Assembly (NCBI GenBank): GCA_021801525.1
Contig: JAJYXW010000035.1
Location: 1-37,766, forward strand
Direction of reading: 5' to 3'
DNA length: 37,766 nucleotides
From: Actinomycetes bacterium
GTDB lineage: Bacteria; Actinomycetota; Acidimicrobiia; Acidimicrobiales; JAJYXR01
The notes below the pieces were generated by a model. The model had not been told where the DNA came from and did no database searches. It was given only the letters and a program-made list of their open reading frames with translations. Of the stretch, positions 5,066-12,519 are shown one piece after another. The translations under genes were made by a program, and so were the position numbers. Each line of letters starts with the position of its first letter. Position 1 is the stretch's first letter.

Positions 5066-5809
5066 TCAGCCGGCCCAGCCTCCCGAAGAAGAGGAGCCAG
5101 AGCCCCCCGAGGAGCTGCTCTTGGTGGATGACGAGCTGCCATAGGAGCCGCTCGAGCCGCTGGACGTGCTCGATCCATACGCGCCTGAGCTCGACCCATA
5201 CGCGCCCGTGCTAGACCCGTACGCGCTCGACGCTGCGAGCGACGGGGTGGCTACCCACCACTTGCCAAGCAGGCCGTTGCCCTTGGCCTGGCCGGGAGCG
5301 GTGTCCCCGGAGAATAGGTAGAGGGGATGCCCGTTGTACTCGACCTGGCGCCCGTTGCCGTCGCTAGCTGTGCTGAGCGTGCCAGTCAGCGACGTCGACG
5401 CTCCCGGGCTACCTGTAGAAAGCAGCAGCGGCGGCCACACGGTGGTGCACGGCTGACCGTTCGGAAGCTTGAAGCTCGCTGTGCACTTGGCTGCGGTAGA
5501 GGTGTCGGGAGTGAAGTAGTAGAGGGTGAGGCCTGCCGAGTCCGTGAGGACGGTCTCGGACTTGCCGGAGACCGTGGCAGTGCCGGTCTTCACCACGACA
5601 GTTGCAGCAGCCGTCTTCACCTTGGCCGCGCTCTTCGACGTCTTCAGCGCACTCGGCGTGCTGGGTGTGCTGCTGCACGCCGCAGCGAGGAGCGCAACAG
5701 CCCCGAGCCCCGCCACCAGGCGCAGCGAACGGCCCACGAGACTCGCACGCTGGACCTCTGACGGCTTGTCCTCCGATGGCAGCGACAATGGGAGCGAACG
5801 ACCGGTCAT
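5066..5809 (-). CDS. Secreted-repeat lipoprotein (COG4315 / Lipoprotein_15 type)
   Basis: This 247-residue exported protein has a long basic N-region, a hydrophobic stretch and the lipobox LAAAC (C45), so it is likely anchored on the outer face of the membrane. It has two copies of the family's repeat. The first reads VLTDSAGLTLYYFTPDTS followed by KLPNGQPCTTVWPP. The second reads VEYNGHPLYLFSGDTAPGQ followed by GLLGKWWVATP. The C-terminus is a low-complexity Ser/Gly/Tyr tail (repeats of AYGSSTG type). ATG 5809 is preferred over an upstream ATG at 5836 because AGGAAAGGAAG lies about 7 bases ahead of it. The function of the family is unknown; extracellular or redox-linked roles have been suggested only from context. 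Confidence 0.87.
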   Translation of the reverse strand: MTGRSLPLSLPSEDKPSEVQRASLVGRSLRLVAGLGAVALLAAACSSTPSTPSALKTSKSAAKVKTAAATVVVKTGTATVSGKSETVLTDSAGLTLYYFTPDTSTAAKCTASFKLPNGQPCTTVWPPLLLSTGSPGASTSLTGTLSTASDGNGRQVEYNGHPLYLFSGDTAPGQAKGNGLLGKWWVATPSLAASSAYGSSTGAYGSSSGAYGSSTSSGSSGSYGSSSSTKSSSSGGSGSSSSGGWAG

Positions 5810-5910
5810 ATCGGCACTTCCTTTCCTCTGGAGCATCGCCGCAGCAGGCTGGACGTCCCCCTCGCCGGCGCGACGAGAATCGAGCCTAACGGCCGGCTGC
5901 GACTATGTCA

Positions 5911-6023: not shown

Positions 6024-6404
6024 TCAGGGCGCCACGACCACCGTGGCGCGCATGCGCTGGTGGAAGTCCGAGCGATAGTGATAGGTGCCCGGCACTCTGA
6101 AGGTGTGGTACCAGACCCCGCTCTGCATCGCCGGGCTCGATGCCACGCCCGGGATGTCCACGTTGTCGGGTACCGGCGGTATGCCCCAGACCCACTCCAC
6201 GGACTGGCCCGCGTGGATCCTCACCACGGCCGGCTCGAAGCTCTCGTAGTTCAGGTGCACCACGGCGCCCACCGGCGCGCTCGGAGAAGGGGACGGCCGG
6301 CCGTGCCCGACGCTCGGGACAGCAGGCAGGCCACCGCAGGCTGCAACTACGAGTGAGAACACGGCAAACGAGAGGAGGTGTCGAAGGCGTAGCACGGTCG
6401 CCAA
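6024..6404 (-). CDS. Cupredoxin-like lipoprotein with altered copper ligands
   Basis: This 126-residue lipoprotein (lipobox VVAAC, C23) has one plastocyanin/amicyanin-type beta-sandwich. The framework aligns well with amicyanin: AGQSVEW, then the first ligand loop, then VPGTYHYRSDFHQRMRATVVV at the C-terminus. In the canonical site the ligands are His (in PHNV) and Cys-x2-His-x2-Met. Here PHNV is PDNV (D80) and the Cys position is S112, while H115 and M118 are kept. A standard blue-copper centre is therefore unlikely. It could be a structural or sensing relic, or bind another metal. The TTG at 6404 is used as start; a GTG at 6395 is also possible. It is upstream of, and codirectional with, the COG4315-type lipoprotein. 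Confidence 0.82.
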   Translation of the reverse strand: MATVLRLRHLLSFAVFSLVVAACGGLPAVPSVGHGRPSPSPSAPVGAVVHLNYESFEPAVVRIHAGQSVEWVWGIPPVPDNVDIPGVASSPAMQSGVWYHTFRVPGTYHYRSDFHQRMRATVVVAP

Positions 6405-6490
6405 TCATGCCATCCGGCCCGTTGTCCGGGCCACCCCGGAAACGACCCGTGCCGACGAGAGCCTCTCTCCGAGTCGGGTATCCTGGGTGA

Positions 6491-7030
6491 GTGGCCTATG
6501 CTGCCCATCCGACCAGGTCGTTCGACTTCGACGACCTGCTCGCGCTGCCCGACGACGGGCTTCGCTACGAGGTCATTGATGGAGCGCTCGTTGTGAACGC
6601 CGCCCCGAGCTGGCGACACCAACGAATCGCCGATCGCCTTGTCCGGGTGCTCGCCGCTGCCGCCCCGGCCGGCGTCGAAGTCATCTCGGCCCCCGCATGG
6701 CGCATCGAGCCGGGTCAAGTGCCCGAGCCCGACGTGGTGGTGGTCGAGCGCACCGCTCTCGGGGACTACGCCGTCGAGGGCACGCCATTGCTCGTGATCG
6801 AGGTACTGTCGCAGAACCGAGGCATGGACCTTGTGCGCAAGCGCGAGCTCTACGCCCGTGCGGGCTGCCCTAGCTACTGGGTCGTGGACCCCGACGTCCC
6901 GTCGGTGATCGTGCTCCGCCTCGTCGATGGCAGCTACGCCGAGGTGGCCGCTATCGCCGGCACGGAGTGCGTCGAGCTTGCCGAGCCGTTTCCCGTCACG
7001 ATCTCCCCGGCGGTGCTTGTCGCGGACTGA
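6491..7030 (+). CDS. Uma2-family (DUF820) putative endonuclease
   Basis: This 179-residue protein begins at GTG 6491. It shows the Uma2 signature of a PD-(D/E)xK-type nuclease fold: YEVIDGALVVNAAPSWRHQ, then EPDVVVVE, PLLVIEVLSQNR, DLVRKRELYARAGCPSYWVV and DPDVPSVIVLRL. Length is typical. Uma2 proteins are abundant in cyanobacteria and actinobacteria, and their role is unclear; some are linked to mobile DNA. It stands alone on this strand, divergent from the cupredoxin gene. Its 3' end overlaps the convergent metallo-hydrolase gene by 35 bases. Confidence 0.9.
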   Translation: MAYAAHPTRSFDFDDLLALPDDGLRYEVIDGALVVNAAPSWRHQRIADRLVRVLAAAAPAGVEVISAPAWRIEPGQVPEPDVVVVERTALGDYAVEGTPLLVIEVLSQNRGMDLVRKRELYARAGCPSYWVVDPDVPSVIVLRLVDGSYAEVAAIAGTECVELAEPFPVTISPAVLVAD

Positions 7031-8108
7031 CCGAAAAGCCGCCCGGTCCTTCGGCGCCGCTCGGTCCATCGCCGGCGCTGCGGCCAGCGTCGCTCGTCTC
7101 GAGCCAACGCCTGAATCCGGCGGCATTCGAGTGGACTCCGTTCAGCGTCTCCAACTTCTCCCTGTTCGCAGGGTCCACCGCGGAGAGATCGGAAGCGAAC
7201 GCCTTCTCGAAGGCGTCCGCTATGTCGTCCCCGGCCCGCCATGCCGCGAGCGCCACCTCCGCCCAGCGCCGGAGCGCCTCCTCAGCCTCCGCGAGGAGCG
7301 CCTCGGGGTCAGAGAGCAATCCGTAGTGAGCAAGGGCTATTCCCTGGGGCCGGCGCTCGCCGAAACGGGCAAGGGAGCCAAGGGCCAGATCGAGATCGAA
7401 GTCGGGCGGCGGCGTAGCGGGCCGCAGCACCCCAGCGTCGGGCAGTCGCACCCCCGCCGCGTCCCCTGCGAATAGGATGCCACTCCCAGAGTCGTGCAGC
7501 GCCACGTGGTGCTTGGCGTGCCCGGGAGAGTCGACCGCCACGAGCACCCTGCCGGGGCCTATCACCACCTCCTCGCCGTCATGGAGCACGTGAAGGCGCT
7601 CGGGAGCCGTGGGCTCCAGGCGCCCGTAGAGCGAATCGAGGAGCGGGCCGTACACCCGGGCGGCAGAGTCGACGAGCCGGGTCGGGTCCGCCAGGTGGCG
7701 CGCGCCCTTCTCGTGCACGTAGACCGTGGCGCCAGGGAACGCCTTTGCCACGTCGCCCACGGCGCCTGCGTGGTCGAGATGGATGTGGGTCACAGCAACT
7801 CCGGCCAAGTCCGCTGGCCCGACGCCGAGCGACTCGAGCGCCGCGAGCAGCGGGCGCAGGGAGCTCTGGCTGCCCGTCTCGACGAGCACCGGAGCCGGGC
7901 CCTCGATCAGGTAGCCCGCCGTCACGTGCTCCCAACCCCCGAGGAGAGTGTCTATTTCCACGACGCCGGGTGCGATGCTGCGGGTGCGCGGAGCAAGATC
8001 TGGGGCACCCCCGCCCGCAGCGTGCGTGTGCCCGCCTGGTCCCCCAGCGTGCGTATGCGTGCCTGGGCCAGAAGTGTGCGTATGCGTGCCTGGGTCCTCA
8101 GGAGCCAA
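6996..8108 (-). CDS. Metallo-beta-lactamase-fold hydrolase with His-rich N-terminus
   Basis: This 370-residue protein belongs to the glyoxalase II-like branch of the MBL fold. The dinuclear zinc motif HxHxDH is THIHLDHAG (H108, H110, D112, H113). Later metal ligands fit DSPGHAKHH and FAGDAAG. Family members hydrolyse thioesters, lactones or related bonds. The first 32 residues are unusual: three PGTHTHAGG-type units rich in His, encoded by a 27-base DNA repeat (about 8020-8100). The start is taken as TTG 8108, which overlaps the end of the dehydrogenase gene by 11 bases. A downstream GTG near codon 50 would remove the His-rich part, so the extension is not certain. Being last in an overlapping GH15-dehydrogenase set, it may act on a sugar lactone; this is inference. 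Confidence 0.88.
   Translation of the reverse strand: MAPEDPGTHTHTSGPGTHTHAGGPGGHTHAAGGGAPDLAPRTRSIAPGVVEIDTLLGGWEHVTAGYLIEGPAPVLVETGSQSSLRPLLAALESLGVGPADLAGVAVTHIHLDHAGAVGDVAKAFPGATVYVHEKGARHLADPTRLVDSAARVYGPLLDSLYGRLEPTAPERLHVLHDGEEVVIGPGRVLVAVDSPGHAKHHVALHDSGSGILFAGDAAGVRLPDAGVLRPATPPPDFDLDLALGSLARFGERRPQGIALAHYGLLSDPEALLAEAEEALRRWAEVALAAWRAGDDIADAFEKAFASDLSAVDPANREKLETLNGVHSNAAGFRRWLETSDAGRSAGDGPSGAEGPGGFSVSPRQAPPGRS
8020..8100. repeat. 27-base repeat encoding the His-rich leader
   Basis: Three imperfect 27-base units (core GTGCGTATGCGTGCCTGGG on plus) lie inside the proposed start of the metallo-hydrolase. They encode PGTHTHAGG-like units on the minus strand. Boundaries are approximate. 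Confidence 0.75.
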
Positions 8109-9144
8109 CCTCTATCACCACCTTCACGTCGTCGGGCTTGCGGTCGAGTGCCTCCGACCAGCTCTCCAGGGGCACCCGCCGCGATACCAGCCGACCGAGC
8201 CACCCCGCGTCCGCCTTGGCCAGTGCAGCAGCTCCTGCCTCGTAGTGCCGGCGGTTCGCGTTCACAGAGCCGACTACCGCTTCGTTCTCGAGCACCATCG
8301 AACGGTTGAGGAGGCCAGCGTCTACCCCGATGCTGTGGCCCCCGGACGACACGCCGGTCAGGCACACCACGCCCCCCGGAGCGAGGTGCTCCATGGCGTC
8401 GAAAACCAGGGAGCCGACGCCGGTGCACTCGACGACCACGTCGGGCGCGTCGCAGGCATCCTCGATCGCCCCGGTGTGGTAAGTGGCTCCGAGGGCAGCC
8501 ACCAGGTCGGGCTTCAGGCCGCTCGCCACCTGGTCGATGACGTGTACCTCGATCCCGCGCTGGACTCCTATGAGGGCTGCCAGCAGGCCGATGGGCCCGG
8601 CACCCGTGACGACTGCACGCTCGGGTGCGAAATGCGCCCGAGCGCCTATGCGCTCGACTTGCTCCCACGCCTTGGCCACTACGCTCGCCGGCTCGAGCAA
8701 TACGCCCAGAACCCCGAGAGCAGGGTCCACCTTCACGAGGTAATCGGGCGTGATGCGGTAGCGCTCCGAGCAGTACCCGTCGTGCTCCTTGATCCCCCGC
8801 TCGGTGTAGCGGCCGTTGCGGCAGAAATCCCATTCGCCCACCGCGCAGTTCGCGCACGGCACCGGGTCGGGACGCCTTACGATCCCGACCACCAGGTCGC
8901 CGGCCTCGAAGCCCGAGCCCGCGGGTGCCTCCACCACGCGCCCGAGCGACTCGTGGCCAAGCACAAGGCGCTCCCTGCCCGGCGGAGCCCACCCGTAGGC
9001 TCCCGAGACGATCTCGGCGTCGGTGCCGCACACGCCGACGGCGAGGGTCTCGACGAGGACCGGACCGTCGGACGCCGGCGGGTCGTCGACATCATCGAGG
9101 CGGGCCGAGCCGGCCTTGCCCGGAACTACCGTCAGTGCCTTCAC
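8098..9144 (-). CDS. Zinc-type dehydrogenase, glucose 1-dehydrogenase-like
   Basis: This 348-residue medium-chain dehydrogenase would oxidise a sugar or alcohol with NAD(P). The catalytic zinc region is VCGTDAEIVSG (C39) and LVLGHESLG (H64, E65). A structural-zinc lobe is CANCAVGEWDFC. The Rossmann motif is VVTGAGPIGLLAALIG. The CGTDAEIVSGAYGWAP segment and the C-terminal VVGSVNANRRHYEAG and DDVKVVIEVG strings resemble archaeal-type glucose 1-dehydrogenases, which make gluconolactone. The GTG at 9144 overlaps the GH15 stop as GTGA, and the 3' end overlaps the metallo-hydrolase start. Substrate is inferred from family resemblance and from the GH15 neighbour. Confidence 0.88.
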   Translation of the reverse strand: MKALTVVPGKAGSARLDDVDDPPASDGPVLVETLAVGVCGTDAEIVSGAYGWAPPGRERLVLGHESLGRVVEAPAGSGFEAGDLVVGIVRRPDPVPCANCAVGEWDFCRNGRYTERGIKEHDGYCSERYRITPDYLVKVDPALGVLGVLLEPASVVAKAWEQVERIGARAHFAPERAVVTGAGPIGLLAALIGVQRGIEVHVIDQVASGLKPDLVAALGATYHTGAIEDACDAPDVVVECTGVGSLVFDAMEHLAPGGVVCLTGVSSGGHSIGVDAGLLNRSMVLENEAVVGSVNANRRHYEAGAAALAKADAGWLGRLVSRRVPLESWSEALDRKPDDVKVVIEVGS

Positions 9145-11126
9145 GAGTGTGGCTCCTTGCGTCGTCGGATGTGCGAAACGGACTTTCCCGCCGAGGCGGC
9201 CGAACCGGCCACACGGCCGTGCATCACGTTCCAGGGCGCGCCGTGCTTGGAACGGGCCCGGCCCCGCGCCATCGCCCTTCGCAGGAGCGGCATCGTCTCC
9301 TGCGCCAGCTCGAAGGGGTGCCCGCTCAGGTTGTACGCCGCGTTCACGAGCGACACATGGGAGAAGGCCTGGGGGAAGTTGCCGACCTGGCGCCCGGAGA
9401 GCGCGTCGTACTCCTCAGCGAGGAGGCCTAGGTCGTTGCGAAGGGACAGCAGCTTCTCGAACAGCACCCGGGCGTCGTCGTGGCGGCCTATCAGCTCCAG
9501 GCAGTCGGCCAGCCAGAACGAGCAGGCGAGGAACGCACCCTCCCTGCCGGCCAGGCCGTCGACGTCATGAGCATCGGCCGCCTTGTAGCGAAGGACGAAG
9601 CCGTCCTCCGTCAGGTCGCGCTCGATGGCCTCCACGGTGGAGCGAACCCTTTCGTCGCCGGCGGGCAGGAAGCCGACGAGGGGGATCATCAGCACGCTCG
9701 CGTCGAGCTCGGTCGCCCCGTAGTACTGGGTGAAGGCGCCGACGTCGGAGTTGTAGCCCTTGGAGCAGACCTCGTCGTGGATCTGGCTGCGGAGCGCTCT
9801 CCAGCGGTCGACAGGTCCATCCAGGTTGCACTCCTCGACCGTGCGGACTGCGCGGTCCACCGCCACCCACGCCATAACCTTGGAGTGCGTGAAGTGCCTC
9901 CTCGGCCCGCGCACCTCCCAGATGCCATCGTCTGGCTCCGCCCAGCCCGACTCGAGGAAGTCCATGAGCGCGCACTGGAGGTCCCAGGCCGGATCGGTCA
10001 CCTCGTCTCCCACCTTGCAGGCTTCGTAGAGGGCAGACATCACCTCGCCGTAGACGTCGAGCTGGAACTGGCCCGCGGCTGCGTTGCCGATGCGCACGGG
10101 TGAGGAGCCCTCGTAGCCGGTGAGCCAGGGCACCTCCCACTCCTCGAGGCGTCGCTCTCCCGCTGGGCCGTACATGATCTGGAGGTCCTTCGGGTCTCCC
10201 GCCACGGCTCGCAGCAGCCAGTCACGCCACTCGATCGCCTCCTGGTGGTAGCCGCCGCGCATGAGCGCCTCGAGCGTGAGGGTGGCGTCGCGCAACCAGC
10301 AGTAGCGGTAGTCCCAGTTGCGGCCCCCGCCGAGGGATTCGGGCAGCGAGGTGGTGGCCGCCGCCACGATCCCGCCAGTCGGTTGGTAGGTGAGCGCCTT
10401 CAGCGTGACGAGCGACCGCACCACGGCATCGCGCCACTCGCCCTCGAAGGTGCACTCCGCAGCCCATTCGTTCCACCACTGCTCCGTGTCCTCGATGGCG
10501 TAGCGAGCATCGGTCGGGCGAGGCGGGTCCTCGCTCGGCGAGAACCAGGTGAGCACGAAGGGTATGTGCTCGCCTTCGGAAACGGTGAAATCCGCTACCG
10601 TGCGCATGTCCTCGCCCCTGGTATGCACCGGGGTCCACAGCACCAGGCCGTCCGGCCCCGCCACAGCGCTCAACAGGCCGTCGAGCCGCCTGACCCAGGG
10701 GACGACGCGCCCGAAGCCGAAGCGCACGGCCAGCTCCATCCTCACCGGCACCCGGCCGCGCACTCCCACCACCATCCGGACCACCTCCGGGTGGGTCTCG
10801 CGAATGGGCATGCAGTCGACGACGCGCACGGTCCCCTCGGGCGTGTCGAACTCGGTCTCCAAGACGAGCGTGTCGCCCCGGTAGCTCCTCCTCGCGGCAC
10901 GCCCGGAGCCCGAGCCGGTACTTGCAGCGGCACTCTGGCCTGCTGCGAAAACGGCCGAAGGCGCTATGCGCCAGTAGCCGTTCGAGCCGTCGCCGAGCAG
11001 CTTGGCGAAGCACGCGTCGGAGTCGAAGCGGGGAAGGCAGAGCCAGTCGATCGAGCCGTCGATCCCCACCAGCGCTGCCGTGTGGGTGTCGCCGATGATC
11101 CCGTAGTCCTCTATACGAAGCGCCAC
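9141..11126 (-). CDS. GH15 glycoside hydrolase (glucoamylase/trehalase-like)
   Basis: This 661-residue protein has the full actinobacterial GH15 layout. The N-terminal beta domain starts IEDYGIIGDTHTAALVGIDG followed by SIDWLCLPRFDSDACFAKLLG. The (alpha/alpha)6 barrel has GGGRNWDYRYCWLRDATLTLEAL, WLTGYEGSSPVRIGNAAAGQFQLDVYGEV-type motifs and a C-terminal VGNFPQAFSHVSLVNAAYNL. GH15 enzymes release glucose from alpha-glucans; mycobacterial relatives are trehalases, so trehalose is also a candidate substrate. No signal peptide is visible, so it is probably cytoplasmic. Start is GTG 11126, 78 bases after the marP-like gene on the same strand. It overlaps the dehydrogenase by 4 bases. Confidence 0.94.
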   Translation of the reverse strand: MALRIEDYGIIGDTHTAALVGIDGSIDWLCLPRFDSDACFAKLLGDGSNGYWRIAPSAVFAAGQSAAASTGSGSGRAARRSYRGDTLVLETEFDTPEGTVRVVDCMPIRETHPEVVRMVVGVRGRVPVRMELAVRFGFGRVVPWVRRLDGLLSAVAGPDGLVLWTPVHTRGEDMRTVADFTVSEGEHIPFVLTWFSPSEDPPRPTDARYAIEDTEQWWNEWAAECTFEGEWRDAVVRSLVTLKALTYQPTGGIVAAATTSLPESLGGGRNWDYRYCWLRDATLTLEALMRGGYHQEAIEWRDWLLRAVAGDPKDLQIMYGPAGERRLEEWEVPWLTGYEGSSPVRIGNAAAGQFQLDVYGEVMSALYEACKVGDEVTDPAWDLQCALMDFLESGWAEPDDGIWEVRGPRRHFTHSKVMAWVAVDRAVRTVEECNLDGPVDRWRALRSQIHDEVCSKGYNSDVGAFTQYYGATELDASVLMIPLVGFLPAGDERVRSTVEAIERDLTEDGFVLRYKAADAHDVDGLAGREGAFLACSFWLADCLELIGRHDDARVLFEKLLSLRNDLGLLAEEYDALSGRQVGNFPQAFSHVSLVNAAYNLSGHPFELAQETMPLLRRAMARGRARSKHGAPWNVMHGRVAGSAASAGKSVSHIRRRKEPHS

Positions 11127-11204
11127 GGCCCCATTCTTACCAGGGCGCCCTCCCGGTCTGCGGTCAGACCCGGCAGCGCCTGCCTGCTCTGTCGCCTGCG
11201 CAGC

Positions 11205-12377
11205 TCAGTTGATGCAAGCGCCGTCGCTCGTGGGAGAGCCCGAGGTCTCCGCTTTCTGTACCTCACTGAGCACTGCCGGGCTCGAGAGCGCGTATCCGAC
11301 GTTGGAGTTGGTGGTGGAGCGGGCGAAGACGACGCCGACCACCTCACCGTCGGGCAGCACGAGCGGGCCACCCGAGTTGCCAGGGCGGATGATGGCGTCG
11401 AGCTCGTAGATCTCGCGAGTCACCTGGGCGTTGCCGTATATGTCGAGGCCGGTCGCGTCGAAGGCCGCCATGACGCCGGCCGGCCCGTAGGTGAAGGGGC
11501 CGCCGCCGGGGTACCCGAGCCACACCGCCTGGGTCCCCCGCGCCACGAGGGAGGAGTCGAGGCGCAGCGAGGGGTCCGCAAGCCCAGGGACCCGGAGCAC
11601 GGCCACGTCGAGCCTGGGGTCGTAGAGGATGGTGACCGTGGCGTGGCGCCCGGACCGGTCGATCACGACCGGGTGCTTGATGCCGGCAACCACGTGGGCG
11701 TTCGTCACCACAATCCCCGGAGCCACCACGAAACCCGAACCCTCCTGGATAACCCCGCATCCCTGGCCGACGATCTGAACCGTGGACGGTCCTGCGTCCA
11801 CGACCGCCGAGCGTATTGCAGCGTTCGTGGGGAGCGCGACGGGTCCCGCCGTCTGGGGCGGTATGCCCGAGAAGACCACCGGGAAGCCTTCGGAGGTGAG
11901 GAACCCCTCGATCCTGGAGAAGATGATCGAGGGCCTGAAGGGGATGACGCTGTCGAGCGTCCTTATGATGCGCGACTGGCTGACAGCCGCGTCGAGCGTG
12001 GTGAAGCGGCTGTTCACCAGCAGGTTCGCGGCCAGCCAAGCCGCCAGCAACGTGGCTATCACCGCCACGCCGACGCCTAGCGTGGAGTCGAGCGGGCCAA
12101 GCTTGATGCGCCTGAGCGCGAGCCCCGATCGTGCTCCGAGGTAGCGCCCGGCACCACCTAGAAGCATTGCCGGCCCGAAGAGCACCACCACGACGATGAT
12201 CGACTTCGTGAGATGGCTGTGGACGAGGGCAGCGAGCGGAGGAACCAGAAGAGCCCCGACGAGGAGCCCCAGCCAGAACCCCCCGAATGACAGGACCTGC
12301 ACTGCAGCGCCGAGGCGCAGCCCGTGGACCGCCGAGACCGCGACGAGCACGAGAAGAAGGATGTCGACCCAGTTCAT
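11205..12377 (-). CDS. marP: MarP-like membrane serine protease (CvpA + trypsin-like)
   Basis: This 390-residue protein has an N-terminal four-helix CvpA-type membrane domain (about 1-125) and an extracytoplasmic chymotrypsin-like protease. The triad is H228 (VVTNAHVV), D257 (RLDVAVLRV) and S335 (RPGNSGGPLV). C207 and C388 match the position of the activity-controlling disulfide known in mycobacterial MarP, which is needed for acid and oxidative-stress tolerance. ATG 12377 is chosen because AGGAG lies 9 bases upstream and the protein then begins directly with the first membrane helix. An upstream in-frame start at 12443 would add 22 unlikely residues. It is divergent from the RDD gene, and GH15 follows 78 bases later. 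Confidence 0.93.
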   Translation of the reverse strand: MNWVDILLLVLVAVSAVHGLRLGAAVQVLSFGGFWLGLLVGALLVPPLAALVHSHLTKSIIVVVVLFGPAMLLGGAGRYLGARSGLALRRIKLGPLDSTLGVGVAVIATLLAAWLAANLLVNSRFTTLDAAVSQSRIIRTLDSVIPFRPSIIFSRIEGFLTSEGFPVVFSGIPPQTAGPVALPTNAAIRSAVVDAGPSTVQIVGQGCGVIQEGSGFVVAPGIVVTNAHVVAGIKHPVVIDRSGRHATVTILYDPRLDVAVLRVPGLADPSLRLDSSLVARGTQAVWLGYPGGGPFTYGPAGVMAAFDATGLDIYGNAQVTREIYELDAIIRPGNSGGPLVLPDGEVVGVVFARSTTNSNVGYALSSPAVLSEVQKAETSGSPTSDGACIN

Positions 12378-12519
12378 GCAGGCATACTCCTGTCCATGGT
12401 CCCAGATTCTCTCCCAAATGGGTCGTCGTGTGCGAAGCAGCAATGCCGCCGGCGCGCCCGGCTCGAGCGTCGAGACCGCTAAGATTGCCTCGACCCCCGA
12501 CGATCGGAGGCGTAGAGGG
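12378..12519. promoter_or_regulatory. Divergent control region, marP-like / RDD genes
   Basis: These 142 bases separate two divergent starts. A perfect inverted repeat CTCGA-GCG-TCGAG lies at 12462-12474, and TAAGAT at 12480-12485 could be a -10 box for the rightward gene, although no good -35 is visible. The role of the palindrome as an operator is a guess. Confidence 0.35.

Follow-up and report, generated by a model that had tools for sequence, protein, structure and literature searches.

A predicted cupredoxin-fold lipoprotein of Acidimicrobiales without its blue-copper site, and repeated loss of copper ligands among its relatives

The gene at positions 6024-6404 (reverse strand) of contig JAJYXW010000035.1, from an Actinomycetes bacterium of the order Acidimicrobiales, encodes a cupredoxin-fold lipoprotein of 126 amino acids with the ligand set D-S-H-M, in which Asp stands for the first copper-binding His and Ser for the copper-binding Cys. 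The whole stretch of 37,766 nucleotides which was analyzed is called the window below. Taking the aligned sequences and the predicted structure together, we consider it probable that this protein is a maintained copper-free cupredoxin which serves as an extracytoplasmic binding module and is not an electron carrier. As judged from the aligned sequences, loss of ligands is also common in the orthologue group to which it belongs, so that the phenomenon is more general than was seen in an earlier sequence-only reading of the window.

The open reading frame starts with TTG at 6404 and its stop codon ends at 6024; translation could also begin from the GTG at codon 4. A lipobox-like run, LVVAAC, of the kind found in bacterial lipoproteins as judged by eye, ends at C23 (6336-6338, reverse strand), which is near-invariant in the family and is the sole Cys of the protein, no Cys being found downstream of it in the 126 residues. 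From this lipobox the protein is predicted to be lipidated and placed at the surface outside the cytoplasmic membrane. In pairwise alignments D80, S112 and H115 lie opposite His, Cys and His of plastocyanin 1bxu, and the same residues along with M118 lie opposite His, Cys, His and Met of amicyanin 1sfd; the aligned residues of both proteins are those which we take to be their copper ligands. The same match at four positions is present in a 30-row alignment of relatives. Thus D80 (GAC, 6165-6167) occupies the first copper-His position, S112 (TCG, 6069-6071) the copper-Cys position, and H115 (CAC, 6060-6062) and M118 (ATG, 6051-6053), all on the reverse strand, are retained at the second copper-His and the axial Met positions. 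The copper-ligand residues of azurin are given in the excerpted text of PMC6485061.

The sequence-only reading had named these two replacements and two retained ligands, and the alignments bear it out on each; comparison with amicyanin and plastocyanin, the check which it proposed, restored neither the Cys nor the first His. Since no Cys follows C23, no realignment can supply a copper thiolate, and electron transfer by a blue-copper centre, already doubted in that reading, is excluded by the sequence. An error of sequencing or alignment was considered and rejected, because the DSHM set recurs in the nearest relative (G001, of the same family, 65% identical over the matched part), which makes a sequencing error very unlikely, and because the window protein has no other Cys. 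G001 was the only other genome of this family among the relatives searched. The genome of the window (G000; 3.38 Mb in 193 contigs) has a single copy of the gene, and a scan of window positions 6350-7100 for promoters and terminators found nothing.

The fold of the protein was modelled by AlphaFold2 from the 30-row alignment, giving a mean pLDDT of 87.3 with ten-residue blocks of about 88-98 over residues 41-126, and the model was compared with plastocyanin 1bxu by VIA-align (Z 13.6, rmsd 1.3 over 80 residues). The model is a plastocyanin-type Greek-key beta-sandwich and places the protein in the cupredoxin fold superfamily with high confidence, in agreement with the well-kept fold and the cupredoxin-like lipoprotein which had been read from the letters alone. 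The Cys thiolate with two His which defines a type-1 blue copper site is absent, the three positions being D80, S112 and H115. The term amicyanin-like, used in the earlier reading, holds in part: the protein aligns as a cupredoxin, but the models of named families were matched only below their cut-offs (amicyanin TIGR02657, 21.8 bits against a curated cut-off of 110.2; halocyanin domain TIGR03102, 23.4 against 93.8; Pfam Cupredoxin_1, PF13473, 19 against a gathering cut-off of 27; Copper-bind, 14.4 against 21.2), and the term therefore means cupredoxin-like. The Cupredoxin_1 cut-off is passed by orthologues from the same locus, such as those of G113 and G096. In fold (Z 12-13.6), in the spacing of the C-terminal ligand run and in the positions of His115 and Met118 the window protein is like plastocyanin, amicyanin and halocyanin, and it differs from them in Asp for the first His, in Ser for the Cys and in scores lying under the curated family cut-offs.

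Relatives were found in 45 of 99 related genomes (E <= 0.01) and, by profile, in 96 of 397 genomes of the order (E <= 1e-12); the named relatives (8 loci) are from Actinomycetes/Acidimicrobiales metagenome-assembled genomes. The aligned set has 54 cupredoxin sequences from 53 genomes, the remaining matches being outside it. When ligand sets are written in the order His, Cys, His, Met, the window set DSHM is shared by G001 and G083, and the other altered sets are DCHM (G034), GSHM (G040, G086), VSHM (G150, G201), ASGM (G091), GSSG (G050), NSSA (G124), SDRA (G348), GDSA (G282), ADSA (G203), ADSV (G380), HDHV (G096, G128, G181), YCHM (G065, G060), CCEM (G048), QSHI (G078b, a second copy in G078) and HCRL (G225). 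All others of the 54 are HCHM, apart from G206, which is cut off. Several degenerate relatives, for example those with GDSA, ADSA and GSSG, have lost all four ligands, so the shared function seems not to need metal here. A phylum-wide search at E <= 1e-24 gave six matches outside the order, all HCHM when read, with no match to an MBL-fold gene in the short stretches around them (2.5-3.3 kb each). A search of viral contigs for relatives and a first single-protein scan of genome contigs gave no result.

The ligand-poor and the copper-type proteins share a place in the genome. An MBL-fold gene lies upstream on the same strand at 32 of the 43 loci compared, within 280 bp at 27 of them, and these 32 loci carry 12 HCHM proteins, 19 degenerate ones and one that is incomplete. 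The other 22 aligned sequences comprise 18 HCHM and four degenerate proteins (G050, G124, G078b, G225); 11 of these 22 came from short stretches only and their neighbours were left out of the locus comparison. From shared place and shared sequence the ligand-poor proteins are orthologues of the copper-type ones. With its upstream MBL-fold gene on the same strand, its lipobox and its match to sequence profile A2, the window protein belongs to the group defined here as MBL-adjacent cupredoxin lipoproteins. The gap between the two genes is 594 bp in the window and is also longer in G128, G271, G047 and G042; in G001 it is 33 bp. An MBL match is present in 127 genomes, from which 40 more loci were taken, a few of them very short stretches; a cupredoxin profile match lies downstream at four of the 40 (one cut by the contig end), so the cupredoxin is an optional neighbour and is dispensable in the order.

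The MBL-fold hydrolase of the window (6996-8108; Pfam Lactamase_B, 1.7e-19) has an intact HIHLDH metal motif. Upstream of it on the same reverse strand are genes for a glucose-dehydrogenase-type MDR protein (8098-9144; Pfam Glu_dehyd_C, 1.8e-68), a GH15 trehalase-like protein (9141-11126; Pfam Glyco_hydro_15, 1.3e-87, and TREH_N) and, at the upstream end of the row, a MarP-family serine protease (11205-12443; NCBIfam MarP family, 7.8e-102, above the cut-off). Most of this row, from 6996 to 12443, is conserved within the order Acidimicrobiales, the GH15 gene keeping its place in it, and GH15 trehalase-like and MarP-type protease genes are found farther upstream in many of the 43 loci. Trehalose might be turned into gluconate by the GH15 protein, the glucose dehydrogenase and the MBL protein, the last as a putative lactonase. 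Between the MBL and cupredoxin genes of the window lies a Uma2-family gene on the forward strand (6491-7030; Pfam Uma2, 1.3e-33), which has no match at the other 42 loci compared and would break the link between the cupredoxin gene and the row upstream of it. Directly downstream (5066-5836, reverse strand; Pfam, 2.2e-17) is a Lipoprotein_15-type lipoprotein gene, whose product has a Ser/Gly/Tyr-rich tail; G001 has such a gene in the same place, with 70% identity.

The history of the ligand losses was analyzed on a tree of the 54 cupredoxin sequences, from which the four ligand columns had been removed, and on a tree of 32 MBL rows. Parsimony gives a minimum of 6 changes at the Cys position on the cupredoxin tree. 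On the MBL tree the Cys changes 6 times, the first His 5 times, the second His 4 times and the Met 3 times. When the 18 rows that carry Ser or Asp in place of the Cys were all forced into one clade, a group which was defined after the ligand states were seen, the log-likelihood changed by -174 (p-AU 4.6e-7). A single origin of the Cys loss was rejected by this AU test, though the deep nodes are weak: starred inner branches number 15 of 51 on the cupredoxin tree and 10 of 29 on the MBL tree, which makes any count of the losses approximate. Families f1 and f50 group together at 85/85 on the cupredoxin tree and may share a single loss of the Cys. In the genus of G034 (DCHM) and G083 (DSHM), the two ligand sets suggest that the first His was lost before the Cys.

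The sequences remain constrained after the ligands are lost. In the degenerate set of 22 rows, which includes the window and leaves out G225, residues P58, G66, V69, W71, S90, G96, F102, G106, Y110 and V124 are invariant in all 22, and positions 80, 112, 115 and 118 vary. Ratios of dN/dS were obtained by the Nei-Gojobori method from the lipobox onward and are 0.15 for G040/G086, 0.04 for G150/G201 (with a high dS of 1.91), 0.07 for G096/G206, 0.14 for G034/G083 (high dS, 1.51) and 0.19 for G000/G001 (high dS, 1.18), that is, 0.04-0.19 in five of the six usable degenerate pairs, the sixth, G348/G282, giving 0.51. Three copper-type pairs gave 0.12-0.23; for G040/G150 and G128/G181 dS is saturated and no ratio is given. 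Replacements are also fixed within families: HDHV is present in all three complete members of f61 (48-51% identity) and Asp112 in all four degenerate members of f45 (51-62% identity). No stops inside the degenerate frames were reported in the profile and sequence matches. The invariant core, the low dN/dS and the family-fixed replacements together argue that the gene is not simply dying, G348/G282 being the weakest case.

The course which we favour begins with an ancestor which would have been a blue-copper lipoprotein encoded beside the gene of an MBL-fold hydrolase. Its type-1 copper site was lost in the lineage of the window and separately in several others, purifying selection has kept the beta-sandwich, and the domain, with its predicted lipid anchor, probably touches a protein or a ligand with the surface where copper used to be bound. 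A role without a copper centre, which the sequence-only reading had suggested, is argued for by the purifying selection on the kept fold. For the window protein, simple binding in place of electron transfer, which that reading had also offered, is plausible, and by analogy with ephrins and plant ENODLs a binding role appears most likely where the fold is kept without a redox centre. We infer that no other metal has taken the place of copper in this protein.

The opposite view, that D80, H115 and M118, helped by S112 or a water molecule, make the protein a non-blue carrier or sensor of Cu(I), Cu(II) or Zn, seems unlikely to us, although H115 and M118 are kept in the window protein and in G001, family f61 has its fixed H-D-H-V, and copper-bound crystal structures of engineered Cys112-to-Asp azurins are described in excerpts of PMC8915257. 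The second His and the Met occur together in only 10 of the 22 degenerate proteins, the window included; same-locus orthologues with GDSA, ADSA, ADSV and SDRA have neither His nor the Met, which makes a common metal function unlikely, and the first ligand drifts between G and V even within f40. On these counts metal sensing, which had been offered as a role for the window protein, is not upheld. A different metal site is possible, with H115, M118 and D80 as its candidate ligands in the window protein, and would be likeliest in f61.

Somewhat less likely again is a decaying gene, in which the copper protein has become useless and its ligands are the first to drift before the gene dies. The many different ligand replacements, the 36 of 40 further MBL loci without a downstream profile match (a few of those stretches being very short) and the ratio for G348/G282 would agree with decay, but it is opposed by the fully invariant fold-core columns, the low ratios in the other five pairs, the lack of reported stops in the frames and the replacements fixed in f61 and f45. 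In the cupredoxin fold three ligand positions converge at the copper, and D, S and H are present together in G000, G001 and G083, so a hydrogen-bonded Asp-His-Ser site (D80, H115, S112) acting as a nucleophile or a proton-linked switch was also weighed; we regard it as highly improbable, as all three residues occur in only 3 of the 22 degenerate proteins and related families have A-S-G, G-S-S or N-S-S instead.

A copper-poor or anaerobic way of life was rejected as the cause of the losses. Haem-copper oxidase subunit I (COX1) is present in 31 of 34 genomes and COX2 in 32 of 34, G000 included, so these organisms still use copper and shortage of copper is not the cause. As to a second blue copper protein that might have taken over, in G000 Pfam Copper-bind has no match at E <= 0.01, and the one Cupredoxin_1 match above the cut-off is L032 (contig C52), a membrane-anchored cupredoxin with a CxxxC motif and a CETPCDPWSMGRMGFM run. 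L032 resembles CuA but lacks the usual His, and proteins like it are present in f1, f34, f40, f50 and f61. An extra small cupredoxin is commoner where the relative is copper-type, and some f61 genomes have one too. Two off-locus cupredoxin-like proteins, L167 (G049, contig C22) and L156 (G150, contig C71), are also without the copper Cys and have the runs FYDQMDPLM and YISDTTEGM.

Copper-free cupredoxins are already known from ephrins and plant ENODLs. The receptor-binding domain of ephrins has the cupredoxin fold with copper binding lost and serves in protein binding, according to excerpts of PMC6485061; it is likened to the window protein by description and differs in being an animal receptor ligand with disulfides. 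Plant ENODLs are described in the excerpted part of PMC10048054 as phytocyanins without the copper-binding residues, standing beside copper-type family members; the likeness is again by description, and ENODLs differ in that they come from plants, are in many cases chimeric arabinogalactan proteins and are not bacterial lipoproteins. No printed account of the MBL-adjacent group was found in the literature on Acidimicrobiales cupredoxins and unconserved copper residues.

Of the 6 genomes of family f61 that were covered, 4 have a match and 3 a complete protein, and these three orthologues (L068, L084 and L087, from G096, G128 and G181) carry H-D-H-V. The copper site of such designed azurins is reportedly named type zero copper. 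The engineered azurins C112D and C112D/M121L, laboratory mutants described in excerpts of PMC8915257, resemble f61 in Asp for the Cys and a hydrophobic residue for the Met, and the window protein differs from them by Ser at the Cys position and by loss of the first His. It is a doubtful though conceivable reading of the series that one locus has repeatedly turned a copper protein into copper-free or differently liganded forms, with the HDHV of f61 as a natural type-zero-like or two-His-one-carboxylate site and the window as a DSHM branch.

Loss of copper by cupredoxins has been known from animals and plants, and here it is repeated at one bacterial locus with a new set of replacements almost every time. 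The fixed H-D-H-V would allow a copper-site design from the laboratory to be set against what may be its natural counterpart. As relatives with the full site remain at the same locus, the group offers a set of natural mutants with which to ask what use a cupredoxin has once electron transfer has been removed from it.
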